Assembly (NCBI RefSeq): GCF_001275675.1
Contig: NZ_LITM01000001.1
Location: 107,696-171,695 of the forward strand
DNA: 64,000 nt
DNA from: Lysinibacillus sp. FJAT-14745
GTDB taxonomy: Bacteria; Bacillota; Bacilli; Bacillales_A; Planococcaceae
Direction: 5' to 3'
Shown here: positions 13,097-50,323 of the stretch, one piece after another
Layout: the number at the start of each line of letters is the position of its first letter
Position numbering within the stretch: position 1 is the first letter of the stretch
Made by a program: the position numbers and the translations under genes
Notes under the pieces: model-generated
The model's database searches: none
What the model saw: the letters and a program-made list of their open reading frames with translations, nothing else
What the model was told of the DNA's origin: nothing

Positions 13097-14098
13097 ATGA
13101 AACAAAACATATATCAATGGGGCGACTCACAAAATCCAACTTTACTCTTTTTACATGGCCTAGGGAGTACGGGCTTAGCATATGGAGAATTAGCAAAATA
13201 TTTACCAGAGTATCATATCGTATCCTTTGATTTACCTGGACACGGCTATGCAAAAGCCTTGGAAGAAGAAGAGGCTTATTTGCCTTCCAATTTGATTGAA
13301 GAGATAGAAGCAACAATAAATCAGCAGTTAGGGAATACATCTCATTATTTAACTTCTTTCAACAGAAGCCCCTACCCTATATGTGTTGAGATGAATGCGG
13401 TTTTAAGTCACTTTTCAGCGGGTGTCCAATTATCCGCTGAAAGAAGTTAAAGCCTCCGGCGGATGTCACAGAATCGGAAAGGAGTTCTTTGTGCAAGCAC
13501 AAAGCCGATTCCGGACGCAATTATGCCGAGGCATAATTGATTTGGTCATTCTTTTGGAGCTGATTTGGCATTACATTATGCCGCTAAATACCCAAAACGA
13601 TCAAAGGGAATAATTTTGTTAGATGGCGGTTATTTGTCATCGCAAGATTTAGGCATGACATTAGAAAACGAATTACAAAGTATAGAGAAATTTTGCGAAG
13701 AAGTAAAATTCCCATCTTGGGACGTATTTTTTGAATCGGAAAAAGAAGAGCTTTCACGATGGTCGGAAGAGCTTGAAGAAGCATCAAGGGCTCAAGTTAA
13801 GGAGCAGGATGGAGAAATTAGACTAACGATGTCTACTTTTACAGGGCAATCCATCATAAAAGGTATTGATGCGGAACCTGTCAAAGATATAGTAGAACAG
13901 GTGCATTGCCCGACTCTCTTGATCTGCGCAACAAAACCAAGCGAATTAGAAGCTATTAGAAAGAAGAGTATTCAATTTTTGCAAACTAGAATTAAGAGCT
14001 TCGATATTGAACCAATCGCAGATGCAGGCCATGATATTTTTCGTGAAGCACCTAAGGATGTTGCCCAAAAAATAAGAACATGGGTTGAGAATCATTAA
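13097..14098 (+). pseudogene. Alpha/beta hydrolase gene interrupted by an R1 element
   Basis: The 5' part (from ATG 13097) encodes FLHGLGSTG (oxyanion loop) and FDLPGHG, ending HYL at 13351. After the R1 element the same reading frame resumes with GHSFGADLALHYAAKYP, the nucleophile elbow carrying the catalytic Ser, and continues to the Asp/His region (TLLICATKP, DAGHDIF). The inserted 189 bases are a multiple of three but contain stops (TAA 13448-13450, TGA 13538-13540). Removing 13353-13541 restores HYL-I-GHSFGA, the normal family sequence. The gene is therefore recently broken; no other damage is seen. Confidence 0.9.
13353..13541 (+). mobile_element. R1 element, copy A (inside hydrolase gene)
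   Basis: Starts CTTCTTTC after TTTAA and ends GGCATAATTGAT. Left hairpin CTTCTTTCA..TGAAAGAAG encloses an extra block of about 60 bases; then the common core GCCTCCGGCGGATGTCAC, the nested hairpin (GAATCGG/CCGATTC and CTTTGTGC/GCACAAAG) and the end hairpin AATTATGCC/GGCATAATT. One G-to-A change (ACAGAATCGG) weakens the outer nested stem. Confidence 0.88.
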
Positions 14099-14140
14099 TA
14101 AGGAAGCAGCGCAAGCATGGTATGACAAATTCAGAGGTGA

Positions 14141-14707
14141 ATGAAACTGATAAAAACAGAAGAAGAGCTAAAAAGCTTAATTGCAGCAGATGAATGGATG
14201 ATGCACATTTTAACAACTGTAGAAAAGCTACAATTACCTGATTCATGGGTATGTGCTGGATTTATTCGTTCAAAGGTGTGGGATTATTTACACGAAAAAG
14301 AATACAGAACACCATTAGCCGATATTGATGTGATATATTTTGATAAAGTAAATTCTTTAGAGAACTATGAGAAGCAATATGAACAAGAATTGAAGAAGTA
14401 TTTACCGAATGAGCCATGGTCTGTGAAAAATCAAGCAAGAATGCATGAAATAAATAATAGTGAGCCTTATCAATCCTCTATTGATGGCATTGCACATTTT
14501 CCAGAAATACCAACAGCTATCGGTGTGAGGCTTGCTAATGGAAGACTTGAAATAGCTGCACCGCATGGTATCGAGCATTTAGTTTCTGGAATTGTCGCTC
14601 CTACACCATATTTTCAAAAAGGCTCTCAACAGCATGAGGTTTATATGAATAGAGTTCGAAACAAGCAGTGGGATTTATGTTGGCCGAAGCTACAGATTGT
14701 CTACTAA
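14141..14707 (+). CDS. Nucleotidyltransferase family protein (COG3575 type)
   Basis: 188 residues. WVCAGFIRSKVWDYLHEKEY, then LADIDVIYFD, carries the G..R and D-x-D elements of minimal nucleotidyltransferase folds; GIEHLVSGIVAPTP is a conserved C-terminal signature of this family. Substrate unknown. It begins at ATG 14141 behind AGAGGTGA, 42 bases after the broken hydrolase, and precedes a DinB gene by 23 bases, so it may belong to a small accessory operon. Confidence 0.8.
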   Translation: MKLIKTEEELKSLIAADEWMMHILTTVEKLQLPDSWVCAGFIRSKVWDYLHEKEYRTPLADIDVIYFDKVNSLENYEKQYEQELKKYLPNEPWSVKNQARMHEINNSEPYQSSIDGIAHFPEIPTAIGVRLANGRLEIAAPHGIEHLVSGIVAPTPYFQKGSQQHEVYMNRVRNKQWDLCWPKLQIVY

Positions 14708-14730
14708 AATGAAACGAAGGAGGTAAAGAC

Positions 14731-15225
14731 TTGTATCACGATAAAAATCAAATAATCTCGCATTATGAAAAATCTATAGCATTTGTGGGAAATTTAGTAA
14801 GTTTAACTGAAGAACAATGGCGTACACCTATAGAACCTGGAAAATGGACGGTTGCAGAGATAATTGGACATCTTACACCATGGGATGAATTCGTGTTAAA
14901 TCAACGTCTACCGTTTCTTTTTACAGAAGAAAGCTTACCGAAAGGGCCACCTGTAGAAGAAACGAATGCAAGCGCATCAAGGAATAGTCGTGTACAAAGT
15001 AAAGAAGCAACGATAACTAATTTTATAAATCAGAGACATCAGCTAATGAACGCACTTCATCCATTTGATGATAAGCAATGGCAACAGCCTTTTAAAATAG
15101 GTACAACTGAATTAACACTCCACGGGTATTTTGCTAGTTTAGTAGATCATGATCTGCATCATTTTTCACAAATCCAAAATGTTTTAAAGAATGTAGAGGC
15201 AGTAAAGTGGATATCAAGCATTTAA
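14731..15225 (+). CDS. DinB-like four-helix bundle protein
   Basis: 164 residues of the DinB/YfiT superfamily. The three metal-binding histidines fit H in EIIGHLTPWDEF near residue 50 and the pair in VDHDLHHFSQIQ near 140. Many Bacillota members are thiol (bacillithiol) S-transferases, but this one is unassigned. TTG start with a strong AAGGAGGT site. The 3' end overlaps the AraC regulator start by 19 bases, implying translational coupling. Confidence 0.82.
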   Translation: MYHDKNQIISHYEKSIAFVGNLVSLTEEQWRTPIEPGKWTVAEIIGHLTPWDEFVLNQRLPFLFTEESLPKGPPVEETNASASRNSRVQSKEATITNFINQRHQLMNALHPFDDKQWQQPFKIGTTELTLHGYFASLVDHDLHHFSQIQNVLKNVEAVKWISSI

Positions 15226-16037
15226 TCGATTACTATGCACATGCATCTGTAAGCTTTACGGATGTTTTTACAAATAAAATGGAACCAGGTCAAGTAGATA
15301 CAGGACGAATAACAGCTCCTGGGAAGTGCGGGTTAGTTGTGCCACTTGCTGGTAGTGCCATATTTAGTTTTAATGGTATCCCTTATGTAATGGAGCCAGG
15401 TATGGTCGTACATGCAGGGCCACAAATGCCAATCGAAATTAAAGTTTCCGATGATAAGGAATGGGAGTATGCGGTTATCCATTATCAACTTCCTCCCGAA
15501 GAAGCAACTTTATATCCATTATCAGTTCAGCATTTTTTAATCAATACAGGCTATCATACAAAAATTATCGATTATGTACAGCAGCTAATAGAAAGCCAAG
15601 CAATGCCAGGTAATATGTCAATATTCAAAGCAAAGACGCTATTTATGAATCTTTTAGAAGTCATTCTTATGTCGGCAAAAGTGAAGGTTCTTGATACGGC
15701 AAGTGATCAGATGGAGCAAGCTTTGCAGTATATACATGAGAATTATGCTAAGCAACTTTCTGTTTCGAAAATTGCTGAAGAATTTGGCGTGGAGCGTCGT
15801 CGGTTTGCTTATCTGTTTGAACAGCATACTGGGATGAATCCTAGCGTCTATTTAACGGAATATCGCATACGGCGGTCGGAGGAGTTACTAAAATATGACG
15901 ATTCTCCAGTAGCAGAAATAGCAGAATGTGTAGGTTATGTAGATTGCTTTTACTTCAGTCGAGTATTTAAAAAATGTACTGGAATGTCCCCGACAGCTTA
16001 TCGAAAATTAATGATTGAGGAAGCTAAATACGTATAA
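15207..16037 (+). CDS. AraC-family transcriptional regulator next to siderophore operon
   Basis: 276 residues: N-terminal cupin-like sensor domain (APGKCGLVVPLAGSAIFSFN, YVMEPGMVVHAGPQM) and C-terminal double HTH (QLSVSKIAEEFGVERRRFAY, VAEIAECVGYVDCFYFSRVF, KKCTGMSPTAYRK). In B. subtilis the AraC-type regulator Btr activates feuABC-ybbA for bacillibactin uptake and sits beside it; this one lacks the extra binding-protein domain of Btr but has the same position. GTG start. Activation of the downstream uptake operon is therefore a reasonable inference. Confidence 0.85.
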   Translation: MDIKHLIDYYAHASVSFTDVFTNKMEPGQVDTGRITAPGKCGLVVPLAGSAIFSFNGIPYVMEPGMVVHAGPQMPIEIKVSDDKEWEYAVIHYQLPPEEATLYPLSVQHFLINTGYHTKIIDYVQQLIESQAMPGNMSIFKAKTLFMNLLEVILMSAKVKVLDTASDQMEQALQYIHENYAKQLSVSKIAEEFGVERRRFAYLFEQHTGMNPSVYLTEYRIRRSEELLKYDDSPVAEIAECVGYVDCFYFSRVFKKCTGMSPTAYRKLMIEEAKYV

Positions 16038-16039
16038 AA

Positions 16040-16074
16040 AGTTGTTTCTTGATAATAGAAGCAGCTTTTTTTTT
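16040..16074 (+). terminator. Terminator of the AraC gene
   Basis: AGTTGTTTCT pairs with AGAAGCAGCT, followed by nine T. The R1 fragment copy B begins immediately after the T-run. Confidence 0.8.
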
Positions 16075-16135
16075 GTGACATCCGCCGGAGGCTTTAACTT
16101 CTTTCATCAGGTGTTTGAACACCTGATGAAAGAAG
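16075..16135 (-). repeat. R1 element, copy B (truncated, inverted)
   Basis: On the minus strand it reads TTTTCAA, CTTCTTTCATCAGG, a perfect 20-bp hairpin, then GAAGTTAAAGCCTCCGGCGG and ATGTCAC, where it stops. The nested and terminal hairpins are missing. It is the only copy in this orientation. Confidence 0.8.
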
Positions 16136-16218
16136 TTGAAAATCGGCAAAAGTCCATGAGATTCATGAAATTGTCCATTCACAATAAGTTTTCTCTTTGT
16201 TAGGATAGTATCCGTAAA

Positions 16219-16233
16219 TGATAATGAATATCA
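16219..16233. promoter_or_regulatory. Fur box 1
   Basis: TGATAATGAATATCA matches the Bacillus 7-1-7 Fur consensus TGATAATNATTATCA at 14 of 15 positions. Confidence 0.7.
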
Positions 16234-16252
16234 ATTAAAACAACAAAGTCTA

Positions 16253-16280
16253 TTGACTTATAAATGAAAATGATTATCAT
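16253..16280 (+). promoter_or_regulatory. SigA promoter overlapped by Fur box 2
   Basis: TTGACT (16253-16258), 16-base spacer, TATCAT (16275-16280). The second Fur box TGAAAATGATTATCA (16265-16279, 14 of 15 to the 7-1-7 consensus) covers the spacer and -10, so iron-loaded Fur would block transcription of the siderophore operon. Confidence 0.8.
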
Positions 16281-16318
16281 TATCAATATAATTAAGTTCG
16301 TTAGGAGAGAATAAATCT

Positions 16319-17302
16319 ATGAATAAATATTTTAAAATGTGTGCACCCGCTCTATTAGCGCTATCCTTGGCTGCATGTGGTACGGATAAAGCGGAAGAGT
16401 CTACTGCATCTACAAATAATGCCGCTGAAACTAGTACAACAGAAACACAAACGAATCAGGCGAAAACACAGACAATTACATACTTAGGCGAAAAATATGA
16501 ACTTCCTGCAGAAGTGAAAAACATTGTAGCTGCAAGTTTAGAATCTATGGAGGATGCGACAATGCTTGGTATCAAGCCTGTTGGGGTGCTTGATATCGGT
16601 GGGAAAATCCCTTCATATCTTGCTTCTGAATTAGAAGGTGCTGAGCTTGTTGGAAATAAAATGTCACCGAATACTGAAGCCATTCTTAAACTTGATCCAG
16701 ATGTCATTTTAGGTTCCTCAAAATATCCTGAGGAAATGGCTGAAAAGCTTAAAAAAATTCAAACGATGATTCCTTATTCACATGTCTCTACAAATTGGAA
16801 GGAGAATCTAACATTACTCGCCCAGCTTACAGGTAAAGAAGATGAGGCGAAAAAAATCATTGCTGATTATGAAGCGAAGGTTGCTGATTCTCAAGTGAAA
16901 TCTAAAGAGCAATTAGCAGATAAGCAAGTTCTAGTTATTCGAGTACGTGGTGGCATCATGTATATCTATCCTGCAGGCGTTTACTTAAACCCTGTTTTAT
17001 ATGAAGATTTAGGGGCTCCAGTACCAGAGGTTTTAAAAACAGCTAAGGCACAGGCTGAACTATCGCTTGAAACATTAGCAGAGGTTAATCCTGATGCTAT
17101 TTTCCTTCAATTTGAGGAATCAGAAAATGCCGATGCACCAAAAGCGTTAGAAGAGCTCCAAAAAAATCCGATTTTCGCAAGCTTAAAGGCATCACAAAAT
17201 AAACAGGTTTTCGTTAATGCAATTGAACCTTTAGCACAAGGTGGTACAGCATGGTCTAAGGTGAAATTCTTAGATATCGCAGCGGAAAAATTACTTAAAT
17301 AG
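16319..17302 (+). CDS. Iron-siderophore ABC transporter binding lipoprotein (FeuA/YfiY-like)
   Basis: 327 residues. Lipobox LSLAAC with Cys at about residue 20 is followed by a Thr/Ser-rich linker and a class III periplasmic-binding-protein fold (YLGEKYELPAEVKNIVAAS, PDVILGSSKYPEEM, GGTAWSKVKFLDIAAEKLL). It should capture a ferric siderophore at the outer face of the membrane and deliver it to the two permeases that follow. First gene of a Fur-controlled operon; a hairpin after it probably raises its level over the distal genes. The siderophore type cannot be read from sequence, though the esterase at the operon end suggests a catecholate triester. Confidence 0.9.
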   Translation: MNKYFKMCAPALLALSLAACGTDKAEESTASTNNAAETSTTETQTNQAKTQTITYLGEKYELPAEVKNIVAASLESMEDATMLGIKPVGVLDIGGKIPSYLASELEGAELVGNKMSPNTEAILKLDPDVILGSSKYPEEMAEKLKKIQTMIPYSHVSTNWKENLTLLAQLTGKEDEAKKIIADYEAKVADSQVKSKEQLADKQVLVIRVRGGIMYIYPAGVYLNPVLYEDLGAPVPEVLKTAKAQAELSLETLAEVNPDAIFLQFEESENADAPKALEELQKNPIFASLKASQNKQVFVNAIEPLAQGGTAWSKVKFLDIAAEKLLK

Positions 17303-17310
17303 TTTAGATA

Positions 17311-17357
17311 GGCTGGTAGTAGATTTGGTGGCATCACCAGGCTATTACCAGCCTTTT
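17311..17357 (+). terminator. Intercistronic attenuating hairpin
   Basis: GGCTGGTA pairs with TACCAGCC, with an inner GGTG/CACC stem, followed by TTTT. The short T-run suggests partial termination between binding protein and permeases. Confidence 0.6.
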
Positions 17358-17391
17358 ATAGGCATAATTGATATAGAAAAAGGTGTGGAAG

Positions 17392-18399
17392 TTGAAAAAA
17401 ACAAACATTGTGGCATTTTCAATAGTAGCGGTTTCTCCATTCCTAATTGCGATTGTGGCATTAGTATCCGTTATGTATGGCACAAAAGACATTAGTGCAA
17501 TAACGGTGTGGCAGGCGATTACTGCATTCGACTCTTCAAATGTGGATCACCAAATTATTCGAACAGGGCGTATCCCTAGAATAGCTGCAGTTTTACTGGT
17601 GGGAGCATTTTTAGCAGTAGCTGGGGCAGTGATGCAAGGTATTACACGAAATTATTTAGCATCCCCTTCGTTAATGGGCGTTAATGATGGTTCTGCATTT
17701 GTGATTACGTTAGCGATAGTATTTTTCCCAGGGCTTCCAAATTACCAAATGATTCTACTTTCAATGCTTGGTTCAGCATTAGGAGCAGGGATTGTCTTTG
17801 GTTTTGGCTCTTTAATTCGAAATGGTTTATCACCAGTAAGACTGGCCATTATTGGAACGGTCATTGGTACGTTTTTAAGCAGTATTACTACAGCCATTGC
17901 GATGTATTTCCAAGTATCACAAACGGTAAGTGTTTGGTATAACACAAAGGTACATATGGTAGATATGGATATGCTCATGCTAGCTATCCCATTTGGATTA
18001 ATTGGTTTAGTTCTTGCACTTTTATCAGCTAAGGCTATTACAATAACTTCACTAGGCGAAGATATCGCTATTGGACTTGGACAAAAAACAAAAGCAGTGA
18101 AAATTATTAGTATGCTTGCTGTTGTTTGTTTAACAGGTACAGCAGTTGCACTTGTAGGAAAGATTGCCTTTGTAGGGTTAGTCATTCCTCATATTACACG
18201 TTTCCTTGTTGGAGTCGATTACCGCTTTATCATTCCTTGTGCAGCAGTAATAGGTGCGTTTTTCTTAGCGCTCTGTGATGTACTCAGCCGCTTTGTTAAT
18301 TATCCATTCGAAACCCCAATCGGCGTCTTAACGGCCTTGGTTGGTGTTCCATTCTTCCTATATTTAGTTCGTAAACACGGAGGTGAACAACGTGCGTAA
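17392..18399 (+). CDS. Siderophore ABC permease (FecCD family), subunit 1
   Basis: About 335 residues with nine to ten hydrophobic helices. The FecCD core GRIPRIAAVLLVGAFLAVAG, AGAVMQGITRNYLASPSLMG and FVGLVIPHITRFLVG (the coupling helix that contacts the ATPase) are all present. It forms the heterodimeric membrane channel with the next gene product. A TTG start at 17392 has AAAGGTG at suitable spacing; GTG 17383 is an alternative. Its end overlaps the next reading frame. Confidence 0.9.
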   Translation: MKKTNIVAFSIVAVSPFLIAIVALVSVMYGTKDISAITVWQAITAFDSSNVDHQIIRTGRIPRIAAVLLVGAFLAVAGAVMQGITRNYLASPSLMGVNDGSAFVITLAIVFFPGLPNYQMILLSMLGSALGAGIVFGFGSLIRNGLSPVRLAIIGTVIGTFLSSITTAIAMYFQVSQTVSVWYNTKVHMVDMDMLMLAIPFGLIGLVLALLSAKAITITSLGEDIAIGLGQKTKAVKIISMLAVVCLTGTAVALVGKIAFVGLVIPHITRFLVGVDYRFIIPCAAVIGAFFLALCDVLSRFVNYPFETPIGVLTALVGVPFFLYLVRKHGGEQRA

Positions 18400-19423
18400 A
18401 AAAACCTCAAGTGTATTCGTCATGACTGTTTCCATACTCATGCTATTTATTTTTGGCGCCGGCTATCTCCATATGACAAATGGTGTCTTTGATATGTCGG
18501 TGATGGATGTTTTAAAAACATTGCTACGCATTGAACCAAATCCAAAATTTGATCTTGTCATTTTTGAATTTCGTTTACCACGTATCGTCATTGCAGCATT
18601 AGTAGGTGTTGGCTTAGGGATGGCAGGGGTTGTGCTACAAGGTATTACGCGTAATGGCCTAGCAGATCCGGGGATTTTAGGGATTAATGCTGGGGCTGGT
18701 GCAGCGGTGGTTATATTTATGTTTTTCTTTCAATTACGTCTCACATCCGCAGATTATAGTAGCTGGTTATCGATTTTGATGATGCCGATTTTTGGATTCG
18801 TCGGTGGTGCGATGGCAGCTGTGTTGATTTTCTCATTTGCCCGGAAAAATGGTCATTTAGATATGCAACGGCTAATTTTAACGGGGATTGCGATTAATAG
18901 TGGCTTTGGGGCATTGTCACTTTTTTTATCATTGAAAATGAATGCTCAAGATTATGAAGCTGCCGCCGTTTGGATGGCAGGCTCTATTTATAATGCAAAC
19001 TGGATCTTTGTTGTGACAATGCTACCGTGGCTTATTTTATTAGGCTTTTATGTTTATCGGAAATCGTATTTGCTCGATTATTTTCAATTGGAAGAGGATA
19101 GTATTACTAGCTTAGGAATAGCAGTAGAAAAAGAGAAAATGAAGCTGTTATTGGCAAGCGTCGGCTTAGTAAGTGCCTGTGTATCAGTATCAGGTAGTAT
19201 CGGTTTTATTGGATTAATGGCACCACATATTGCTAAACAGCTTGTTGGTATACAACATCGTTATGTCATGCCAGTAAGTGCGTTGATAGGCGCGGGATTG
19301 CTTATATTAGCTGATTTTATAGGAAAAACAGTATTTGCGCCGTCTGAGCTGGCGGTAGGTATTGTTGTCTCGATTATTGGGATTCCGTATTTCTTATATT
19401 TACTAGTGAAATCAAAGGCATAG
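18392..19423 (+). CDS. Siderophore ABC permease (FecCD family), subunit 2
   Basis: About 343 residues, same family as the preceding gene: FRLPRIVIAALVGVGLGMAG, VVLQGITRNGLADPGILGIN and IGFIGLMAPHIAKQLVG mark the FecCD fold. GTG at 18392 is chosen because GGAGG lies eight bases upstream, inside the end of subunit 1 (8-base overlap, translational coupling). Partner of subunit 1 in ferric siderophore import. Confidence 0.9.
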   Translation: MRKKTSSVFVMTVSILMLFIFGAGYLHMTNGVFDMSVMDVLKTLLRIEPNPKFDLVIFEFRLPRIVIAALVGVGLGMAGVVLQGITRNGLADPGILGINAGAGAAVVIFMFFFQLRLTSADYSSWLSILMMPIFGFVGGAMAAVLIFSFARKNGHLDMQRLILTGIAINSGFGALSLFLSLKMNAQDYEAAAVWMAGSIYNANWIFVVTMLPWLILLGFYVYRKSYLLDYFQLEEDSITSLGIAVEKEKMKLLLASVGLVSACVSVSGSIGFIGLMAPHIAKQLVGIQHRYVMPVSALIGAGLLILADFIGKTVFAPSELAVGIVVSIIGIPYFLYLLVKSKA

Positions 19424-21105: not shown

Positions 21106-21708
21106 ATGAACATTATTTTAGCGCAAGTAGAGGATGCTTCAGTAATTCATAATGTTATGCTGCGAGCTTTTAAATTCTTTCAGCGCTTGACTACCCGCTG
21201 AAAGAATTTAAAGCCTCCGGCGGATGTCACGGAATCGGAAAGGAGTTCTTTGTGCTTGCACAAAGCCGATTCCGGACGCAATTATGCCGAGGCATAATTG
21301 ATAGAGTATGAACATGCAACACCACCATCAAGTGCACTAAGTGAAACAGTTGAATCGATTGAACAGGCGATGAAAAAAGGTGAGCATGCCTTCATCGGAT
21401 ATATCGATGAACAACCAGTTGCAATGGTAAGATTTACACTAAGCGCTCAAGGAATTTATTTTTTTAGATTATCTGTAATTCCAGAAATGCAAGGACAAGG
21501 ATTGGCCAAAGCATTAATTACCGAGCTTGAGCAATTCGCATGGGCGAAAGGAAAAACGATAAGCGAATGTAAAGTACGTATGAGTGTACCGAGAAATATT
21601 GAGTTATATCACTCATTGGGGTATATTGTCACAAAAGAAAGCGAGGAAGAAAATCGTAACGGTTTCTCTCTTTCTGTAGCGACAATGGAAAAACAGCTTA
21701 ATAATTAG
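21106..21708 (+). pseudogene. GNAT acetyltransferase gene interrupted by an R1 element
   Basis: The 5' part (ATG 21106) encodes MNIILAQVEDASVIHNVMLR and AF; after the R1 element the same frame continues EYEHATPPSSALSETVESIE through the acetyl-CoA loop (SVIPEMQGQGLAKALI) to the end at 21708. Excision of 21174-21302 gives AFKEYEHATPPSSAL, which fits the family start. The 129 inserted bases are a multiple of three but bring TGA at 21199-21201. The 3' part could in principle be translated from TTG 21298 but lacks the first beta-strand and helix. Confidence 0.88.
21174..21302 (+). mobile_element. R1 element, copy C (inside GNAT gene)
   Basis: Follows TTTAA; begins ATTCTTTCAGCG and closes CGCTGAAAGAAT, so the first stem pair differs from other copies (A-T for C-G) with compensation on both sides. 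Core, nested hairpin (GGAATCGG/CCGATTCC, CTTTGTGC/GCACAAAG) and end hairpin are complete; ends GGCATAATTGAT. Confidence 0.9.
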
Positions 21709-23019: not shown

Positions 23020-23213
23020 CTTCTTTCAGCGGGTGTCCAAACATCGCTGAAAAAGAGAAACTCAGGCTAAAACCTTCACATCCTGTGAAAACGCCTGAGT
23101 GACCAACATCGTGTTGGCCCAAAGCCTCCGGCGGATGTCACGGAATCGGAAAGGAGTTCTTTGTGCTTGCACAAAGCCGATTCCGGACGCAATTATGCCG
23201 AGGCATAATTGAT
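23020..23213 (+). mobile_element. R1 element, copy D (extended 5' domain)
   Basis: Follows TTTAA 15 bases after a terminator. After CTTCTTTCAGCG..CGCTGAAAA the left hairpin opens into extra stems not seen in other copies: ACTCAGGC/GCCTGAGT with inner TTCACA/TGTGAA, then CCAACA/TGTTGG (23052-23119). Core, nested hairpin and terminal hairpin are then complete; ends GGCATAATTGAT. Confidence 0.88.
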
Positions 23214-29944: not shown

Positions 29945-30373
29945 AAATCTATAGTAAAAGCATTGATAAGGAAAAGTAAATTGGATAAGCATTATATAGA
30001 GAGCCTCTGTTGGTGGAAATGAGGTAAATGCCCCCTTTTGAAAATGACCTTTGAGCTTCGTACCGAAAGCAAGTTTGCGAGTAGATTACGACGAGATAGG
30101 CACTCGTTACAACAGCGGCAGTATCTTTCACTTCTTCCAGCAGATGTCTAAACACCCGTTGGAAGAAGTTCAAGCCTCCGGCGGATGTCACGGAATCGGA
30201 AAGGAGTTCTTTGTGCAAGCACAAAGCCGATTCCGGACGCAATTATGCCGAGGCATAATTGATTAAATAAGATGGCACGTACTGATGGAGGCAAATAGTG
30301 TGAGCTATTTGTGAATATAGGTGGTAACACGGGTATACTCGTCCTAATCAATTTTGATTAGGGCGTTTTTTTT
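29945..30373 (+). ncRNA. T-box riboswitch (methionine specifier) split by R1 copy E
   Basis: Stem I with AGAGAG..GGTGG region and a specifier loop GAAAATGACC (ATG at 30044-30046, methionine), stem II region (GAGTAGATTACGACGAG), then R1 copy E, then stem III (CAAATAG/CTATTTG), the antiterminator ATAGGTGGTAACACGGG (30316-30332) and a terminator CCTAATC/GATTAGG plus eight T (30343-30372). Uncharged tRNA-Met should promote read-through into metG. The insertion sits in the linker between stem II and stem III and may leave function intact. Confidence 0.88.
30131..30263 (+). mobile_element. R1 element, copy E (inside T-box leader)
   Basis: Begins CTTCTTCCAGC and closes GTTGGAAGAAG; the stem has TTCC/GGAA where other copies have TTTC/GAAA, a compensated change. 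Core, nested hairpin and end hairpin complete; ends GGCATAATTGAT. The left flank is TTTCA rather than TTTAA. Confidence 0.88.
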
Positions 30374-30375: not shown

Positions 30376-30496
30376 CTTCATTCAGGGCTTACCTGAATAA
30401 AGATAAAGCCTCCGGCGGATGTCATGGATTTTAAAAGGAAGAATTGTGCTAGCACAATTCAAAATCCAGACGCAATTACGCCGAGGCGTAATTGAT
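30376..30496 (+). mobile_element. R1 element, copy F (divergent subfamily, metG 5'UTR)
   Basis: Follows TTTAT at the end of the T-box terminator T-run. All stems are kept with different bases: CTTCATTCAGG/CCTGAATAAAG, GGATTTT/AAAATCC, GAATTGTGC/GCACAATTC and AATTACGCC/GGCGTAATT. The core GCCTCCGGCGGATGTCA is unchanged. Ends GGCGTAATTGAT. This copy gives the best evidence that structure, not sequence, is conserved. Confidence 0.9.
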
Positions 30497-32219: not shown

Positions 32220-32257
32220 CTTCTTGTTGAACGCAATTATGCCGAGGCATAATTGAT
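32220..32257 (+). repeat. R1 element, copy H (internally deleted)
   Basis: CTTCTTG.TTGAACGC followed by the intact terminal hairpin AATTATGCC/GGCATAATT and GAT. The left hairpin arm, core and nested hairpin are lost. It lies directly after the metG terminator and four bases from the convergent leuA stop. Confidence 0.8.
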
Positions 32258-33948: not shown

Positions 33949-34225
33949 TAAAAAAACCCGCCTCTATATAAAAATATAGAGACGAGTTTATGCTCGCGGT
34001 ACCACTCTAATTGACCTTCTCTTTACAGAAAAAGTCCCCTTATCGACAGCCATCACTGTCTATCCCTTTAACGGAGGAAACCGACGTCCCTTACTTAAAG
34101 TTCAGGGAGTGGCTCATGGACGAGTTCAAAATGTGTGCCTATCGGTTTGCACCAACCACCGACTCTCTACAAGTACACTTGCATTTCTACTATTTCCAAT
34201 CATGGCCTAAAATAATGTGTTGTTG
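33949..34225 (-). ncRNA. T-box riboswitch (leucine specifier) upstream of leuA
   Basis: On the minus strand: stem I with AGAGAGTCGGTGGTTGGTGC, specifier loop GAACTCG (CTC Leu codon at 34122-34124), T-box sequence AGAGTGGTACCGCGAGC (33991-34008) and a terminator CTCTATAT/ATATAGAG followed by GGCGGGTTTTTTT (33949-33989). Uncharged tRNA-Leu(GAG) should cause antitermination. Confidence 0.93.
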
Positions 34226-44643: not shown

Positions 44644-44676
44644 GCTATCATAGCAATGTGCTATAAAGTCTATTTA

Positions 44677-44722
44677 AGCGAGCAATTCGATGGTAAAATC
44701 GTCGAATTGCTCGCTTTTTTTG
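44677..44722 (+). terminator. tsuAB terminator
   Basis: AGCGAGCAATTCGA pairs with TCGAATTGCTCGCT, followed by seven T. Confidence 0.93.
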
Positions 44723-44777
44723 ATACAAGAGGAAAAAACATTGTAATGATGTTTAAGAAAAAATAAGAACTTTCACG

Positions 44778-44806
44778 TTGACATTATACCTAACGGGGTA
44801 TATTAT
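44778..44806 (+). promoter_or_regulatory. SigA promoter with embedded CstR-type operator
   Basis: TTGACA (44778-44783), 17-base spacer, TATTAT (44801-44806). ATACCTAACGGGGTAT (44786-44801) fills the spacer; this is the ATACC-N4-GGGGTAT style of operator bound by CsoR/CstR repressors. Persulfide-sensitive autoregulation is expected. Confidence 0.82.
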
Positions 44807-44857
44807 GAATCTCGTAAGCAAGTTCAATCGATCGTTTTGAAAGGGGGCATGAACAGT

Positions 44858-45118
44858 ATGGCTTACGGTACAAAAACAACTAATCGAGTGAAGCGAATAG
44901 AAGGTCAATTGCGCGGTGTTTTACGCATGATGGAAGAAGAAAAAAGCTGTAAAGATGTGATTACGCAGCTATCTGCCGTGCGTTCTGCGGTTGATCGAAC
45001 TATCGGAGTAATTGTTAGTGAAAATTTATTGGAGTGTGTAACAACTGCTGAAGGAGATGCTGAAAAAGTAAATACAGCAATCCAAGAAGCAATGGATTTA
45101 GTCGTGAAAAGCAGATAA
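44858..45118 (+). CDS. cstR: CstR-type persulfide-sensing repressor (CsoR family)
   Basis: 86 residues, all-helical CsoR/RcnR family: TNRVKRIEGQLRGVLRMMEE then KSCKDVITQLSAVRSAVDRT and ENLLECVTTAEGD. The two Cys (near 30 and 59) are kept, but the metal-binding His four residues before the second Cys is Asn, the pattern of CstR, which senses sulfane sulfur by Cys cross-linking instead of copper. It corresponds in position to B. subtilis yrkD. ATG 44858 is ten bases from GGGGG. Operator-like sequence lies in its promoter. Confidence 0.85.
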   Translation: MAYGTKTTNRVKRIEGQLRGVLRMMEEEKSCKDVITQLSAVRSAVDRTIGVIVSENLLECVTTAEGDAEKVNTAIQEAMDLVVKSR

Positions 45119-45161
45119 ATTTTATATACCCTGAATAGTATGTGGGAGGAGGCAATGGTAC

Positions 45162-45506
45162 TTGGGAACATGGATTATACTTGCTGTCGTTATAGCGTTT
45201 TTCGTTTGGCGAATGAAGCCAACGAAAGGGGTACAGTCAATTTCGGCGGCACAATTGAAAAATATTTTGAATGATAAGGATAAAGTTTTTATCGATGTGC
45301 GTACACCAGCTGAATATAAGGGGCGAAATATTATCCCGCAATTTAAAAATATTCCACTTGGTTCAAGCTTCGATAAATTACCGAAAGATAAAGAGATAGT
45401 GGTCATTTGTCAAAGTGGAATGCGTAGTAGTCAAGCGTGTAAGCAATTAAAAAAACAAGGATTCGAGCGTGTTACAAATGTCCGCGGTGGCATGAGCGCG
45501 TATTAG
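45162..45506 (+). CDS. Membrane-anchored rhodanese-like sulfurtransferase
   Basis: 114 residues. A short N-terminal membrane helix (GTWIILAVVIAFFVWRM) is followed by a single rhodanese domain; VFIDVRTPAEYKGR and the active loop CQSGMRSS (catalytic Cys near residue 86) are intact. The domain probably faces the cytoplasm. TTG start behind GGGAGGAGG. 43 bases after cstR and 12 bases before another rhodanese, so part of the same operon. Confidence 0.85.
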   Translation: MGTWIILAVVIAFFVWRMKPTKGVQSISAAQLKNILNDKDKVFIDVRTPAEYKGRNIIPQFKNIPLGSSFDKLPKDKEIVVICQSGMRSSQACKQLKKQGFERVTNVRGGMSAY

Positions 45507-45518
45507 GAAGAAAATAGC

Positions 45519-45815
45519 ATGAAGGAAATTTCAGCAAAAGAAGTGCAACAAGCTTTAGAGCAAGGTCAGGCAATAAATTTAATCGACGTACGTGAAGTAG
45601 ATGAAGTGGAGGCAGGTCACATACCAGGCATTATTCATATCCCACTTGGCTTACTTGAATTTCGTATGCATGAGCTAAATAAAAATGAACCATATGTTAT
45701 AGTCTGTCGATCAGGTGGTCGTAGTGGAAATGCTACGCAGTTTTTAGAAAGCCAAGGCTTCAATGTATCCAATATGGTAGGTGGTATGCTTGCTTGGGAT
45801 GGCGCAGTAAAGTAA
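45519..45815 (+). CDS. Cytoplasmic rhodanese-like sulfurtransferase
   Basis: 98 residues; NLIDVREVDEVEAGHIPGII and the active loop CRSGGRSG identify a single-domain rhodanese resembling YqhL/PspE types. It probably passes persulfide sulfur between low-molecular-weight thiols and TusA-type carriers. Second of two adjacent rhodaneses; followed by R1 copy G, which separates it from yrkF. Confidence 0.88.
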   Translation: MKEISAKEVQQALEQGQAINLIDVREVDEVEAGHIPGIIHIPLGLLEFRMHELNKNEPYVIVCRSGGRSGNATQFLESQGFNVSNMVGGMLAWDGAVK

Positions 45816-45855
45816 GCAGAGGTGGGGAACCTGTAGCGCTTGCTATTTTTTTAAA

Positions 45856-45979
45856 CTTCTTTCAGGATGGATCGCTGAAAGAAGTTAAAGCCTCCGGCGG
45901 ATGTCACGGAATCAGAAAGGAGTTCTTTGTGCATGCACAAAGCCGATTCCGGACGCAATTATGCCGAGGCATAATTGAT
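45856..45979 (+). mobile_element. R1 element, copy G (inside sulfur operon)
   Basis: Follows TTTTTTTAAA; left hairpin CTTCTTTCAG..CTGAAAGAAG with a shortened loop (GATGGATCG). Core intact, nested hairpin with one change (GGAATCAG) that weakens the outer stem, GTGCATGCAC inner loop, end hairpin complete; ends GGCATAATTGAT, nine bases before an operator-like palindrome. Confidence 0.88.
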
Positions 45980-45987
45980 CTAAAACA

Positions 45988-46003
45988 ATACCTGTGTAGG
46001 TAT
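45988..46003. promoter_or_regulatory. Operator-like palindrome before yrkF
   Basis: ATACCTGTGTAGGTAT, a palindromic ATACC/GGTAT pair similar in half-sites to the cstR operator, located just ahead of the yrkF ribosome site AGGAGG. Confidence 0.5.
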
Positions 46004-46016
46004 ATAGGAGGAAGTT

Positions 46017-46571
46017 ATGAGTATTAAGGCAGATTTTCAGCTAGATGCCAAGGGACTTTCTTGTCCTATGCCAATCGTTAAAACGAAAAAGGCGATGGCT
46101 GATTTAGTAGATGGTCAAATTTTAGAAGTATCAGCAACAGATAAGGGTTCGAAGGCGGATATTGCTGCATGGGCTGAATCCGTGGGCCATCAATATATTG
46201 GGACAGTGGAAGAAGAAAGTGTGCTTAAACATTACATTCGTAAATGTTCAGACGACATGATGGATGAGCAAACGTTTGAACATACAATTGAGTTAAAAGA
46301 GGCAATAGAAAGAGAAGGTCTTCTTCTCGATGTTCGTGAGGAGGGAGAGTTTGCTTTTGGCCACATAGAGGGAGCGAAGTCTATTCCGATGGGTGAGCTG
46401 GAGGGGCGCCTTTCTGAGCTTGATAAAGAGCAAGAGATTTATGTCGTTTGTCGAACTGGGAAGCGTAGTGATTTAGCTGCTCAAAAGCTTGCGGCACATG
46501 GTTTTGCAAAGGTATTTAACGTTCTGCCGGGGATGACATCTTGGGCGGGCGATTTAACAAAACATATTTAG
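46017..46571 (+). CDS. yrkF: TusA-rhodanese fusion sulfurtransferase (YrkF-like)
   Basis: 184 residues, matching the size of B. subtilis YrkF. Residues 1-75 are a TusA domain with LSCPMPIVKTKKAM (CPxP Cys near 15). Residues 90-184 are a rhodanese with LLLDVREEGEFAFGHIEGAK and active loop CRTGKRSD. The fusion lets sulfane sulfur pass between two carrier cysteines, as in CstA of Staphylococcus. Followed after 12 bases by the DsrE-like gene. Confidence 0.9.
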   Translation: MSIKADFQLDAKGLSCPMPIVKTKKAMADLVDGQILEVSATDKGSKADIAAWAESVGHQYIGTVEEESVLKHYIRKCSDDMMDEQTFEHTIELKEAIEREGLLLDVREEGEFAFGHIEGAKSIPMGELEGRLSELDKEQEIYVVCRTGKRSDLAAQKLAAHGFAKVFNVLPGMTSWAGDLTKHI

Positions 46572-46583
46572 GGGGAATTTATT

Positions 46584-46979
46584 ATGTCAAATAAAGTAGC
46601 AATTATTGCAAGTAACGGTGGTCTTTTCGATGCGTATAAGGTGTTCAATATTGCAACGGCAGCAGCGGCGACAGAGAAAGAAGTAGCTATCTTCTTTACA
46701 TTCGAAGGATTGAATTTAATTCATAAGCAAGGAATGCATGCATTACCTATGCCTGAGGGAACAGAGCATTTTGCAGAAGGGTTTGCGAAAGCTAATGTAC
46801 CAGCAATTCCGCAATTGGTGGAAATGGCACAGGAATTAGGTGTGAAATTGATTGCCTGTCAAATGACTATGGATGTAATGGGTTTAACGACAGATGATTT
46901 TGTTGAAGGTATCGAGTTTGGGGGAGCTGTGACGTTCTTGGAGTTTGCAAAAGATGCAGCACCGTCATTAACGTTCTAA
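46584..46979 (+). CDS. yrkE: DsrE/DsrF-like protein (YrkE-like)
   Basis: 131 residues of the DsrE/DrsH family: NKVAIIASNGGLFDAYKVFN, AIFFTFEGLNLI and a Cys-containing IACQMTMDVMGLTTDDF. The Cys may carry a persulfide. B. subtilis YrkE has the same neighbours. Cytoplasmic. Start ATG with AGGGGG. Confidence 0.87.
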   Translation: MSNKVAIIASNGGLFDAYKVFNIATAAAATEKEVAIFFTFEGLNLIHKQGMHALPMPEGTEHFAEGFAKANVPAIPQLVEMAQELGVKLIACQMTMDVMGLTTDDFVEGIEFGGAVTFLEFAKDAAPSLTF

Positions 46980-47048
46980 AAAAATGAAACTAAACTAACA
47001 ATTCAGGCGGAGAGGACAGTCCTTTCCGCTAAAAAAACCAACAAAACA

Positions 47049-47064
47049 ATACCTTAGGGGGTAA
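47049..47064. promoter_or_regulatory. Operator-like sequence before yrkH
   Basis: ATACCTTAGGGGGTAA, close to ATACC-N4-GGGGTAT. The G-run also serves as ribosome site for yrkH, so the match may be partly coincidental. Confidence 0.4.
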
Positions 47065-47069
47065 CTAAA

Positions 47070-48197
47070 GTGTCAGTTCTAAAATGGAACGCAGCACAGG
47101 TAGCGAAAAAAGTAATTAATAATGAAGAACTATTTATCTTAGATGTTCGAAATGCAGATGCATTCGAAGGTTGGAAAATTGATGGCCGTAAATTTGAATA
47201 CCTTAATATTCCGTATTTTGAGCTATTAGACGGCGTCGAAGATATTTTAACGAAGATTCCAGCGGATAAGGATGTGTTAGTCGTTTGTGCGAAAGAAGGT
47301 TCATCGCTGATGGTAGCCGAGATGTTATCAGAAGCGGGACGCACGGTGGCTTATTTAGAAGGTGGAATGAAAACATGGAGTGAATATTTAGAACCGATTA
47401 AAGTTGGAGATTTAACAGGTGGTGGTGAGCTTTATCAATTTGTCCGTTTAGGGAAGGGCTGCCTTTCTTATATGGTCATCTCTGAGGGAGAAGCAGCAAT
47501 TATCGATGCGGTGCGTTTTACTGACGCATTTACAAGCTTTGCAGAAGGGAAAAATGTAAAGATTAAATATGTGTTCGATACACATTTGCATGCTGATCAT
47601 ATTTCTGGTGGACGGCATATAGCAGCTACTACTGATGCGACGTATTATTTACCACCAAAAGATGCAGAAGAAGTTGTGTTTGACTATACACCTTTACTTG
47701 ATGGAACAACTGTACAAGTTGGCACATCTAAAATTGACGTAGGAGCAATTTATTCGCCTGGTCATACAATTGGTTCAACGTCATTCGTTGTGGACAACAA
47801 GTATTTATTAACTGGAGATATTTTATTTATTGATTCAATTGGACGCCCAGATTTAGCGGGTCTTGCAGAAGATTGGGTTGGAGATTTGCGCGAAACACTT
47901 TACAAACGATACAGAGAATTATCGAATGATTTACTTGTTTTACCGGCTCATTTTATGATTATTGATGAACTAAATGAAGATGGAACTGTAGCAAAACATC
48001 TTGGCCAATTATTTGCCGAAAATCACGGCTTAAATATTAAAGATGAAGCAGAATTCCGAAGTGTCGTAACGGAGCATTTGCCTCCGCAGCCAAACGCATA
48101 TCAAGAAATTCGTCAAGTAAATATGGGTAAGATTACCCCAACGCAGGATGAGCAAACAGAGATGGAAATTGGTCCGAATCGTTGCGCAGTTCGATAG
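47070..48197 (+). CDS. yrkH: Rhodanese-persulfide dioxygenase fusion (YrkH/CstB-like)
   Basis: 375 residues, the size of B. subtilis YrkH. Residues 1-105: rhodanese domain ([20 protein letters not shown], loop CAKEGSS). Residues 115-375: metallo-beta-lactamase fold of the persulfide dioxygenase type with [11 protein letters not shown] (iron-binding HxHxDH), SPGHTIGST and [16 protein letters not shown]. CstB-type enzymes oxidise low-molecular-weight persulfide to sulfite and convert it with another persulfide to thiosulfate. Domain order here is rhodanese first, opposite to ETHE1-rhodanese fusions such as staphylococcal CstB. GTG start. Confidence 0.9.
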
Positions 48198-48356
48198 TTG
48201 ATTTATAAAAGAATGTTGAAATGCAATGAGTACGCATGCATGATTATAGCGTGTAAATACCGCGAAGCGAAGGCGCTCATCCTTTGTAAAGTCGTGAAAA
48301 AACAAACAGAACCGGCAAAATCGCTTACAACCTTTGCCGTTCCAAAGGAGAAAAAT

Positions 48357-48584
48357 ATGAAATCAAACTTACAACTAGACGCAAAGGGTTTATCTTGTCC
48401 AATGCCTATAGTGAAAACAAAAAAAGCGATAGATACATTAGCTTCAGGGGAAGTTTTAGAGGTCCAAGTAACAGATAAGGGAGCTCTAGCGGACATCCCT
48501 GCTTGGGCAAAAGCTGGCGGTCATACAATTTTAGAAAAATGTGAAGACGCTAGTGTCATTACATTCTTTATTCAGAAAGCTTAA
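48357..48584 (+). CDS. yrkI: TusA-like sulfur carrier (YrkI-like)
   Basis: 75 residues; LDAKGLSCPMPIVKTKKAID is nearly identical to the TusA half of the yrkF product, so the two are local paralogues. Catalytic Cys in CPMP. ATG 48357 behind AAAGGAG; the frame is open further upstream but without homology. The 160 bases between yrkH and this gene hold no other gene. Confidence 0.88.
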   Translation: MKSNLQLDAKGLSCPMPIVKTKKAIDTLASGEVLEVQVTDKGALADIPAWAKAGGHTILEKCEDASVITFFIQKA

Positions 48585-48592
48585 GACTGGTG

Positions 48593-48631
48593 GGGGTTGT
48601 CTCTTCTATTTGATGGTAGAACAACCCTCCT
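48593..48631 (+). other. Intercistronic hairpin
   Basis: GGGGTTGT pairs with ACAACCCT after a 22-base loop; only a weak T-tract follows (CCTTTCCTT), so it may stabilise or partly terminate the message between yrkI and yrkJ. Confidence 0.45.
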
Positions 48632-48677
48632 TTCCTTATATTGGTCCTTAGTGAAGTAACCGGAAAGAAGGAAAAGT

Positions 48678-49454
48678 ATGGATTTAGCATGGATTATTAC
48701 AATATTTTCAATTGGTTTTGTAGGTTCGTTTGCATCAGGAATGCTAGGAATTGGCGGAGCAATTATTAAATATCCAATGTTGTTATATATCCCACCTTTA
48801 CTTGGTTTTGCGGCATTTTCAGCTCACGAGGTATCAGGGATTAGTGCAGTAGAAGTGTTGTTTGCTTCTATGGCTGGGGTATGGGCATATCGAAAAGGTG
48901 GTTATTTAAATAAATCACTAATTATATATATGGGTGGTGCCGTATTAGCGGGAAGTTTCATTGGTAGTTATGGCTCCAAATTTTTATCTGAAGTGGGAGT
49001 TAACCTCGTTTATGGTGTATTGGCGTTGATTGCTGCAGTGATGATGTTTATTCCTAAGAAGCAAAATGACGACAAGCCTTTAGATGAGGTAACGTTCAAT
49101 AAACCGATAGCAGCTGTATTAGCGTTTATTGTTGGTATTGGATCAGGGATTGTAGGAGCAGCTGGTGGTTTCTTGTTGGTGCCTATAATGCTGGTAGTAT
49201 TAGGAATACCAACACGTATGACAATCGCTACAAGCCTTGCTATTACCTTTGTATCCTCAATAGGCGGAACAATAGGAAAATTGATGACCGGACAAGTTAA
49301 TTACTATCCTGCGTTCATTATGATTATAGCTAGCCTAGTAGCTGCTCCACTAGGTGCAAAAGCGGGAAAAAAATTAAATACAAAAATTTTAAAAGCTATT
49401 TTAGCGGTGCTTATATTGGCAACTGCTATTAAAATTTGGGTAGATATATTGTAG
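48678..49454 (+). CDS. yrkJ: TauE/SafE-family exporter (YrkJ-like)
   Basis: 258 residues, eight hydrophobic helices, motifs [20 protein letters not shown] and [20 protein letters not shown] of TauE/SafE. In staphylococcal cst and Bacillus yrk clusters the TauE-like permease is thought to export sulfite or related oxidised sulfur made by the persulfide dioxygenase. Membrane protein. Followed by the DsbA-like gene after 13 bases. Confidence 0.88.
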
Positions 49455-49467
49455 GAGGCAGTAATAT

Positions 49468-50172
49468 ATGAAAATTGAGGTTTTTTCGGATTTTACATGT
49501 CCGTTCTGCTATATTGGCAAACGGGAATTGGAACGTGCTATTGACTTAGCGGGTTATTCAGGGCAGGTAGAAATTGAATATAAAACATATCAAATTGGAC
49601 CACATACGCCTAAGAAAGATGCACCAATTTTATATGATGGGATGGCTGAGAAATTTAACGCCACACTGGAAGAAGTAAAGGAAATGACTAAAGGTATAGC
49701 AGCACGGGCCGAAGAGGTTGGCTTGCATTATAATTTTGAAGATATGAAAACAGCTCATACTGAAAAAGCTCATCGATTGGCAAAATGGACAAAACAGTTT
49801 GGTAAAGAGTCGGTCTATACGGAAGAGCTTATGAGTGGTTATTTTACGGAAGGAAAAGACTTAAACGATGATAGGTTTTTGTTAAAAGTCATTGGAAATT
49901 TAGACTTAGATGTTGAAATAGCAAAGGGTGTTCTGGCATCAAACGATTTCAGTGAAGCTTTAGACAAAGATCGATATGATGCCCAACAATTAGGTGTACA
50001 AAGTGTTCCGTTCTTTGTTTTTGAAAATCGTTACGGTATTAAAGGTGCAGAGCCGAATGAGGTTTTTGTACGAACTTTGCATCAAGCGGCAGAGATAGCG
50101 GGTATCCAGCCGGCATTAAAGATGATAGGTGATGGTGAAGCAATTTGTGCTGATGGTGAATGTAAATTATAA
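49468..50172 (+). CDS. DsbA-family oxidoreductase (FrnE-like)
   Basis: 234 residues. VFSDFTCPFCYIGKRELERA contains CPFC active site; the helical insertion and the SVPFFVFENRYGIKGAEP cis-Pro segment are as in FrnE. The C-terminal ICADGECKL adds a second Cys pair, seen in the Deinococcus/Bacillus FrnE group. No signal peptide, so cytoplasmic; it may reduce or form disulfides and persulfides on the island proteins. Last gene of the operon, ended by a terminator. Confidence 0.87.
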   Translation: MKIEVFSDFTCPFCYIGKRELERAIDLAGYSGQVEIEYKTYQIGPHTPKKDAPILYDGMAEKFNATLEEVKEMTKGIAARAEEVGLHYNFEDMKTAHTEKAHRLAKWTKQFGKESVYTEELMSGYFTEGKDLNDDRFLLKVIGNLDLDVEIAKGVLASNDFSEALDKDRYDAQQLGVQSVPFFVFENRYGIKGAEPNEVFVRTLHQAAEIAGIQPALKMIGDGEAICADGECKL

Positions 50173-50183
50173 GGGAACGCTAT

Positions 50184-50217
50184 AATGCCGGGTGCAATGC
50201 TGTGCTCGGCATTTTTT
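50184..50217 (+). terminator. Terminator of the sulfur operon
   Basis: AATGCCG pairs with CGGCATT, followed by TTTTT; R1 copy I begins three bases later. Confidence 0.85.
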
Positions 50218-50219
50218 AT

Positions 50220-50323
50220 CTTCATTCAGCGAATTTTTTCTGTGCGAAAGCAAAGCGACAGCAACAAATCTTTTCTGTGCGAAAGCAAAGCGACAGCAAC
50301 AATTACGTCGAGGCGTAATTGAT
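50220..50323 (+). mobile_element. R1 element, copy I (degenerate; internal duplication)
   Basis: Follows TTTAT. Only the left start CTTCATTCAGCG and the end hairpin AATTACGTC/GGCGTAATT plus GAT are recognisable. The middle is replaced by a 32-nt sequence present twice exactly (50236-50267 and 50271-50302), each able to fold as CTGT..GCAAAG..ACAG. Belongs to the copy F subfamily by its ends. Confidence 0.75.

Follow-up and report, generated by a model that had tools for sequence, protein, structure and literature searches.

The window analysed here, 64,000 nucleotides (nt) of Lysinibacillus sp. FJAT-14745 (contig NZ_LITM01000001.1, positions 107,696 to 171,695 of the forward strand), contains nine copies or fragments of R1, a dispersed repeat built from hairpins and lying in and between genes (Table 1). 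These copies had been listed in a preliminary description of the stretch, made from the letters alone, and every start coordinate given there proved correct to the base. That description did not mention the Bacillaceae-1 match in copy D, the T-box leader around copy E, or the interruption of genes by copy A and probably by copy C. Both ends are present in six copies (A, C, D, E, F and H), which are 121–194 nt long and have two unlike ends, while in G and I the left hairpin is reduced to its first bases and the terminal hairpin remains.

Read on its own strand, R1 begins after a target, TTTAA or TTTAT, in the flank and consists of a left hairpin, TTAAA or ATAAA, a 17-nt constant (GCCTCCGGCGGATGTCA), an outer stem, a terminal hairpin and a final GAT. 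The left hairpin has arms of type 1 (CTTCTTTCAGC ... GCTGAAAGAAG) or type 2 (CTTCATTCAGC ... GCTGAATGAAG) around a short or long inside, and the span from left arm to constant clusters at about 48 nt and about 105 nt. The outer stem, GGAATCGG/CCGATTCC, encloses an inner hairpin, CTTTGTGC/GCACAAAG, and is followed by the terminal hairpin, AATTATGCC/GGCATAATT, at the tip of which GCCTC may pair with GAGGC.

Table 1. R1 copies in the window and features belonging to them
Feature	Position	Strand	Remarks
R1 copy A, complete	13353..13541	+	long left hairpin, constant, inner hairpin, terminal hairpin, GAT
Target TTTAA retained in left flank of copy A	13348..13352	+	complementary to TTAAA at 13447-13451
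R1 copy B	16075..16135	-	left hairpin and constant only; ends directly after GTCAC
R1 copy C, complete	21174..21302	+	adjoins GNAT acetyltransferase frame on its upstream side
R1 copy D, complete	23020..23213	+	Rfam Bacillaceae-1 module nested at left hairpin
Bacillaceae-1 (RF01690) module within copy D	23051..23117	+	74.3 bits, gathering score 35
R1 copy E, complete	30131..30263	+	within T-box leader of methionyl-tRNA synthetase gene
R1 copy F, complete, type 2 stems	30376..30496	+	adjoins T run of T-box terminator
R1 copy G, fragment	32220..32257	+	left-hairpin start joined to terminal hairpin
R1 copy H, complete, short left hairpin	45856..45979	+	
R1 copy I, fragment	50220..50323	+	left-hairpin start, two tandem R3 repeats, terminal hairpin

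The constant occurs seven times without mismatch in the window, against 0.05 occurrences expected from dinucleotide shuffles (0 of 100 shuffles reached seven), and 73 times in the 5.16-Mb host genome, where the backward control gave none. Within the genus it was found in 16 of 32 genomes, and across the order in 98 of 261, distributed over 10 of 19 genera and with up to 101 copies per genome; the backward control was again unmatched. Among the matches listed in named genomes, those to a longer R1 pattern fell in Lysinibacillus, Sporosarcina, Rummeliibacillus, Niallia and one assembly labelled Arthrobacter. The R1 copies in this assembly, named Arthrobacter beigongshangensis REN13 (L148, L151, L163, L183 and L200), are far from the other hosts, and the assembly is possibly mislabelled or contaminated. 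One R1 copy lies on a contig classed as viral in IMG/VR (L226, 1081-1169); at the other two viral matches (L227 and L228) the hairpins are absent and the matches look like chance. The constant was not found in the literature searched, and none of the matches listed for literature on repeats named Lysinibacillus; on these searches R1 is previously undescribed.

Empty sites, target and strand bias

Copy A splits an alpha/beta hydrolase gene, the upstream part of which matches Pfam Abhydrolase_1. The filled site reads CATTATTTAA[CTTC...GAT]TTGGTCATTC, and the corresponding site in a relative, G001, is empty (CATTATTTAATTGGTCATTC), with 93–94 % identity beside the site and 84 % across the longer left flank. 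This comparison permits a single solution, in which [CTTC...GAT] stands after TTTAA with no bases duplicated or lost. The site is also empty in two further relatives, G031 and G024, with the same spacing as in G001, and in all three, as read locally by eye, the frame continues across the nucleophile motif; five more distant loci likewise have no insert. The element is therefore defined as [CTTC...GAT] placed after TTTAA. The same boundaries at copy C would preserve a frame extending upstream (upstream part read by eye), and this copy probably interrupts the GNAT acetyltransferase frame.

Other copies differ in their spread among relatives. The site of copy E is filled in G001, G024 and G031 (3 of 29 relatives' loci) and without the copy in the remaining 26. 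Copy F is recognisable in G024, G030, G019 and G021, with remnants or other sequence at its place in several further genomes; F is therefore older than A. An all-against-all comparison of the fetched loci, read by eye, yielded ten pairs with and without a full-length R1, after three pairs with truncated copies had been left out. Two of these were exact, four were of equal length and four were off by 1, 2, 3 and about 11 nt; no target duplication was seen in any of the ten. R1 is a real hairpin-ended DNA element, formerly or still mobile. The empty sites thus support the proposal of the preliminary description, a mobile non-autonomous element with hairpin ends and neither terminal inverted repeats nor target duplication, and the strand bias described below fits single-strand insertion. 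Assignment to a DDE transposon or a miniature inverted-repeat transposable element was rejected, as R1 has no target duplication and no terminal inverted repeats.

Two other sequences were observed in the fetched loci. Positions 2901-3021 of L071 are occupied by another insertion, about 120 nt long, which is unlike R1 and clean when compared with the relative L185, and positions 4438-4546 of L225 hold an iteron array of type GCTGATAAA, present in one genome and absent at the same place in the window's genome.

R1 has a preferred target. Among 64 host copies with a left end found, flank positions -5 to -2 were T (57), T (61), T (60) and A (62), followed by A (55) or T (9). At the right end, AATTGA was followed by T in 93 of 101 host copies, 28 of 28 copies in G001 and 81 of 86 copies in named genomes. 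Between the five bases 5' of the constant and the five flank bases, 4.32 of 5 positions were complementary, compared with 3.33 for permuted guides (0 of 10000 permutations), in the 145 of 224 sites usable for this test; the complementarity is partly a register effect (arms ending GTTAA). A number of unusual flanks had a matching guide that is not a mere shift, namely TTCAA/TTGAA (L109), TTCAG/CTGAA (L183), TTCAT/ATGAA (L163), TTTCA/TGAAA (L309), TCTAT/ATAGA (L166 and L151), ATTAT/ATAAT (L117) and ATTAA/TTAAT (L068). Through this pairing with the guide-like bases, the target in the flank closes the left hairpin at its foot.

R1 is also biased in its orientation. It was co-directional with replication for 42 of 48 and 25 of 26 copies in two single-contig genomes, with replichores assigned by coordinate; GC skew backed this assignment only for G001, at the places sampled. 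Judged by local GC skew, 43 of 52 host copies, 79 of 101 named-genome copies and 18 of 24 G001 copies lay on the G-rich strand; these counts exclude copies in weak skew, and 5 of the 20 stretches in G001 had been chosen for minority orientation. In convergent and divergent intergenic spaces, which give no cue from gene direction, the G-rich strand was favoured by 28 to 9 (P=0.0026). The strand favoured by R1 is the template of lagging-strand synthesis, and the preference is that expected for insertion into this template.

Covariation of the stems

Covariation was assessed in 100 distinct right modules of 75–104 nt (42 from the host, 13 from G001, 42 from named genomes and three others). Longer right modules with a nested module were left out, and two of those included (L147 and L195) still contain other repeat sequence. 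Standard pairs made up 95.6 % of pair cells, against 85.4 % in shuffled and 26–44 % in slid controls, and 14 of 25 pairs varied on both sides. The covariation on which the preliminary description had staked its case is therefore significant against both controls, and the compensated changes reported there, at paired positions of copy F and in the left stems of copies C and E, were found as stated. RNAalifold recovered most of the outer and terminal stems of the right modules, added a 3-bp stem inside the constant and omitted the inner hairpin.

The types of mismatch bear on whether this pairing belongs to DNA or RNA. There were 36 G.T and 37 A.C mismatches in the right modules, and 25 G.T and 40 A.C in the left stems (147 stems with at most three mismatches). 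T-box leaders of the methionyl gene in the same genus gave G.T to A.C ratios of 100:2 (28 sequences) and 105:0 (22 sequences), together 205:2, on a control structure that was energy-chosen on the same sequences and favours G.T. On RNAalifold-chosen pairs R1 had 28 G.T and 18 A.C (listed types counted), which is still unlike the T-box leaders. The lack of a wobble preference in R1, unlike RNA leaders, indicates that pairing is kept at the level of DNA. Of the earlier claim that covariation reveals a selected structure, as RNA or single-stranded DNA, the strong covariation stands, but with 36 G.T to 37 A.C it is no proof of a selected RNA structure. The hairpins may be kept as DNA through single-strand structure or selection on single-stranded DNA, or through template switching. 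R1 would then be a clean case of strong covariation, the usual proof of RNA structure, arising from mobile DNA hairpins, and counts of G.T against A.C would offer a simple control separating RNA covariation from that of DNA hairpins.

Template switching at palindromes during replication would make the covariation a by-product; this explanation concerns the stems only and is compatible with a mobile element. Such switching is described for RNA stems (PMC8794818). The equal counts of G.T and A.C in R1 agree with it, and so does a difference between orthologous copies E, whose left stems differ by a dinucleotide on both arms (CTTCTTCC/GGAAGAAG vs CTTCTTTG/CAAAGAAG), which is what template switching would do. 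Against it, the stems persist across genera with 95.6 % of pairs intact, a pattern that suits selection on single-stranded DNA too. For the stems, template switching is a serious candidate, at somewhat below even odds.

The T-box leader that holds copy E (133 nt) is still above its Rfam gathering score, and this copy offers an easy test case for the tolerance of T-box leaders to insertion. The window also holds a second T-box leader (33975-34212, minus strand) and a cobalamin riboswitch (58659-58861), both ordinary.

Proposed mobilisation of R1

R1 is probably, with a likelihood of roughly two in three, a short non-autonomous mobile DNA element whose moving form is a single strand, as for IS200/IS605 elements and PATE (palindrome-associated transposable elements). 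The element strand would fold into the left hairpin and the terminal right hairpin, and an enzyme acting in trans would join the ends precisely, CTTC on the left and TTGAT on the right, to a target in lagging-strand template that is single-stranded. The preferred targets are TTTAA and TTTAT, and the insertion leaves no duplication. The TTAAA or ATAAA 3' of the left hairpin would pair with the target in the 5' flank and close the hairpin foot, which is a possible basis of site choice. The single-stranded intermediate, the role of these bases as a guide and the trans-acting, HUH-like enzyme are parts that we infer.

Several observations weigh against this mechanism. Gene direction accounts for part of the strand bias (P=0.027 and P=0.0055 against a 75 % expectation), and the orientation of R1 is 5:5 if the genes on both sides run against the G-rich strand; these gene-direction classes rest on simple reading-frame calls. 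Only 24 of 76 flanks other than TTTAA and TTTAT are fully matched by their own guide, partly through register shift, and copies B and E break the rule. No guide was recognised by eye at the right end, and at the left end the guide-like bases follow the hairpin on its 3' side, in contrast to the 5' guide of IS608. The remaining points concern the enzyme, for which Y1 was sought by Pfam family in the 32 genomes of the genus and in 40 genomes chosen from other genera (20 with the motif and 20 without). Y1_Tnp was unmatched in G001, G019, G022, G030 and G031, which have 39–94 constants. Within the genus a Y1 match was present in five of ten genomes with at least 19 constants and in 10 of 16 with none, and counts of R1 and Y1 were uncorrelated (rho -0.22, P=0.23). 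Among the five richest genomes of another genus (63–101 constants), G219 had no Y1, G206 and G166 had one fragment each, and the matches in G217 and G218 were all broken or partial. A full-length unbroken Y1 was thus lacking in all ten of the R1-richest relatives, six of which had no match at all. Right ends without a constant within 700 nt were found for 25 of 101 copies in the host, 6 of 28 in G001 and 10 of 86 in named genomes, and in the 160 nt examined at these ends no gene-bearing (autonomous) R1 was recognised. The fetched stretches held no gene-bearing copy, with or without inverted repeats, and hence none of the autonomous copies with inverted repeats and a DDE transposase that the preliminary description had named as evidence against itself.

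An ordinary member of IS200/IS605, moved by resident TnpA enzymes, would share with R1 the kind of insertion, the hairpins, the target and the strand bias. The host genome has two partial Y1 matches, and full-length Y1 genes occur in some R1-bearing genomes (in the R1-poorer G021, G009 and G066, and in G191 and G216). In the other genera, some Y1 match was present in 17 of 20 R1-bearing genomes, but also in 15 of 20 R1-free genomes. Of the TnpA/TnpB matches in the genus a part, 59 loci, was fetched, and none of these loci had R1 ends as its own ends (the motifs were allowed 2–5 mismatches, and distant relatives could escape). At these loci R1 stood beside one tnpB match (L278), with a degenerate copy at L291 and a left-arm match at L295, and none of the three formed the ends of a gene. 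TnpB was found in 17 of the 32 genomes of the genus and its counts gave a rho of 0.30 with R1 (P=0.09). The Y1 transposase gene with the same end hairpins to which the preliminary description had looked was thus absent from the 59 loci, and Y1 does not track R1. The lack of association within the genus and the position of the guide on the opposite side of the hairpin also tell against resident TnpA enzymes, which makes their role in moving R1 doubtful.

It is less probable still, to the point of being quite unlikely, that R1 is a structured RNA, regulatory or non-coding, with stems selected as RNA in the way that Rfam assumes for Bacillaceae-1. Such an RNA would account for the strong covariation, for a 17-nt constant common to several genera, and for the orientation of R1 between two genes on the G-rich strand, which is that of the genes in 98 of 115 copies. 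It does not explain the absence of a wobble excess beside the T-box leaders, on RNAalifold-chosen pairs as well, or why R1 copies interrupt genes, differ between close relatives and are nested. As far as these sequences go, R1 is not shown to be an RNA.

Group II introns can reverse-splice after the T run of a terminator. Comparable movement of R1 as RNA would fit its exact placement behind a site with which it pairs, its strand bias and the position of copies F and I directly after terminators, but is most improbable, since the wobble counts lower this and other RNA routes, inspection by eye revealed nothing resembling a catalytic domain V, and no intron was among the Rfam matches of the window at gathering threshold.

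The Bacillaceae-1 module and known systems

Copy D contains a full match to the Rfam family Bacillaceae-1 (RF01690), well above its gathering score, and at least 147 matches in the host genome had an E-value of 0.001 or better among the best 150 of 655 first-look candidates. Counts of R1 and RF01690 were correlated across the genus (rho 0.82, with RF01690 counted from the best ≤112 matches per genome), and two R1-free genomes of the genus had 14 and 19 RF01690 matches. In host stretches that had been chosen for R1 and RF01690, 109 distinct Bacillaceae-1 copies were placed: 45 in R4, another dispersed repeat, 26 in the inner hairpin of R1, 15 at the left hairpin of R1 and 23 elsewhere. All 41 copies beside an R1 constant had the constant's orientation and none the opposite one. 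In the copy of E orthologous in G031, a module in the inner hairpin replaces about 6 nt and is absent from the host, G001 and G024, for which the simplest reading is a gain. In the pairs read, modules replaced about 5–6 nt of R1 hairpin, and no clear inverted ends of the module were recognised.

The stems of Bacillaceae-1 also covary. There were 6 G.T and 6 A.C mismatches without the loop-closing position, which itself has 49 G.T, and 55 and 6 with it (97 sequences); these wobble counts do not favour a transcribed RNA. Passages of the 2010 paper defining the motif mark it as RNA and not cis-regulatory (PMC2864571). Bacillaceae-1 is counted as a small RNA (sRNA) gene in Rfam, whereas here it appears as a dispersed hairpin DNA module with no wobble excess, 86 of the 109 host copies lying in R1 or R4, and it may be read as a second hairpin element that enters the hairpin tips of R1 and R4. 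What this sRNA entry of Rfam really represents is therefore in doubt.

Other repeats were observed beside the module. R4 (GACTCCTTGGGGATTAGCG ... GAGACCCTGGAGCGAGCA ... GCGGCTCATCGGACGCCC) lies at 57660-57760 of the window, with weaker matches at 6852, 34356 and 39278, and in the host genome it often holds a Bacillaceae-1 module. R3 is a hairpin repeat (TCTGTGCGAAAGCAAAGCGACAGCAACA) whose two tandem copies (50239-50301) replace the middle of copy I; its reverse complement is found in the tips of Bacillaceae-1 modules elsewhere. Bacillaceae-1-like modules were also nested in or beside other such modules at L192, L100 and L087.

A wider picture, tentative and on balance unlikely to hold in all its parts, is that R1 and Bacillaceae-1 are nested parasites in the form of single-stranded DNA hairpins, mobilised by an enzyme other than a recognisable Y1. 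Bacillaceae-1 would enter hairpin tips in one direction, replacing a few nucleotides, its sRNA entry in Rfam would rest on the covariation of DNA palindromes, and the target of R1 would be chosen by bases at the hairpin foot. The mobiliser of R1 is in any case a definite and testable target.

Among known systems, the IS200/IS605 family is alike in its working. Passages on IS608 and ISDra2 describe hairpins at both ends, target recognition by base pairing and use of the lagging-strand template, and name TTGAT as the integration site of ISDra2 (PMC5934647, PMC6006769); R1 has the same five bases at its right tip. Like these elements, R1 is inserted 3' to a short fixed target that is kept in the left flank, with no duplication, and has different hairpins near its two ends and no terminal inverted repeats. 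Base pairing with the target and the lagging-strand template are shared as well, the latter on orientation bias only. R1 departs from the family in two respects. The guide of IS608 is located 5' of the hairpin foot in the passages available (PMC5934647), whereas the complementary bases of R1 lie 3' of the left hairpin, so that there is likeness in working and difference in layout. A Y1 TnpA encoded in the element or in a relative with the same ends, which is characteristic of the family, was not found for R1 among the 59 fetched loci or indicated by the counts in the genus and the other genera. REP sequences, in the parts of PMC6006769 that treat TnpA-REP, are likewise scattered hairpins of high copy number, but R1 lacks their GT[AG]G: the 5' foot of its hairpin is mostly TTTAA or TTTAT, and its two ends are different.

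The closest resemblance is to PATE of Haloquadratum. As described in passages of PMC3119063, PATE have palindromes close to their two ends but neither terminal inverted repeats nor a target duplication. They are too short for a transposase, and their many copies include strain-specific insertions even though the resident tnpA genes are almost all broken. R1 has the same near-terminal palindromes and likewise no terminal inverted repeats, duplication or transposase gene. It differs from the PATE described there in being bacterial, in a left palindrome that begins at the very end of the element and has a foot pairing with the target, in palindromes that are not IS605-type ends at the 59 TnpA/TnpB loci, and in the Bacillaceae-1 module nested within it. 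This module in turn resembles SMR-A, small mobile repeats that enter PATE palindromes and, in the same passages, have no known mobiliser; SMR-A differ in their inverted terminal repeats, no clear inverted ends having been recognised in Bacillaceae-1. The puzzle posed in those passages, of moving hairpin elements in the presence of hardly any intact Y1 enzyme (PMC3119063), thus recurs in bacteria. What is new about R1 is the guide at its hairpin foot, the Rfam family nested within it and an enzyme that was sought but not found. This comparison suggests that R1 works like an IS200/IS605 derivative while differing in two defining traits, and that PATE is its nearest counterpart.

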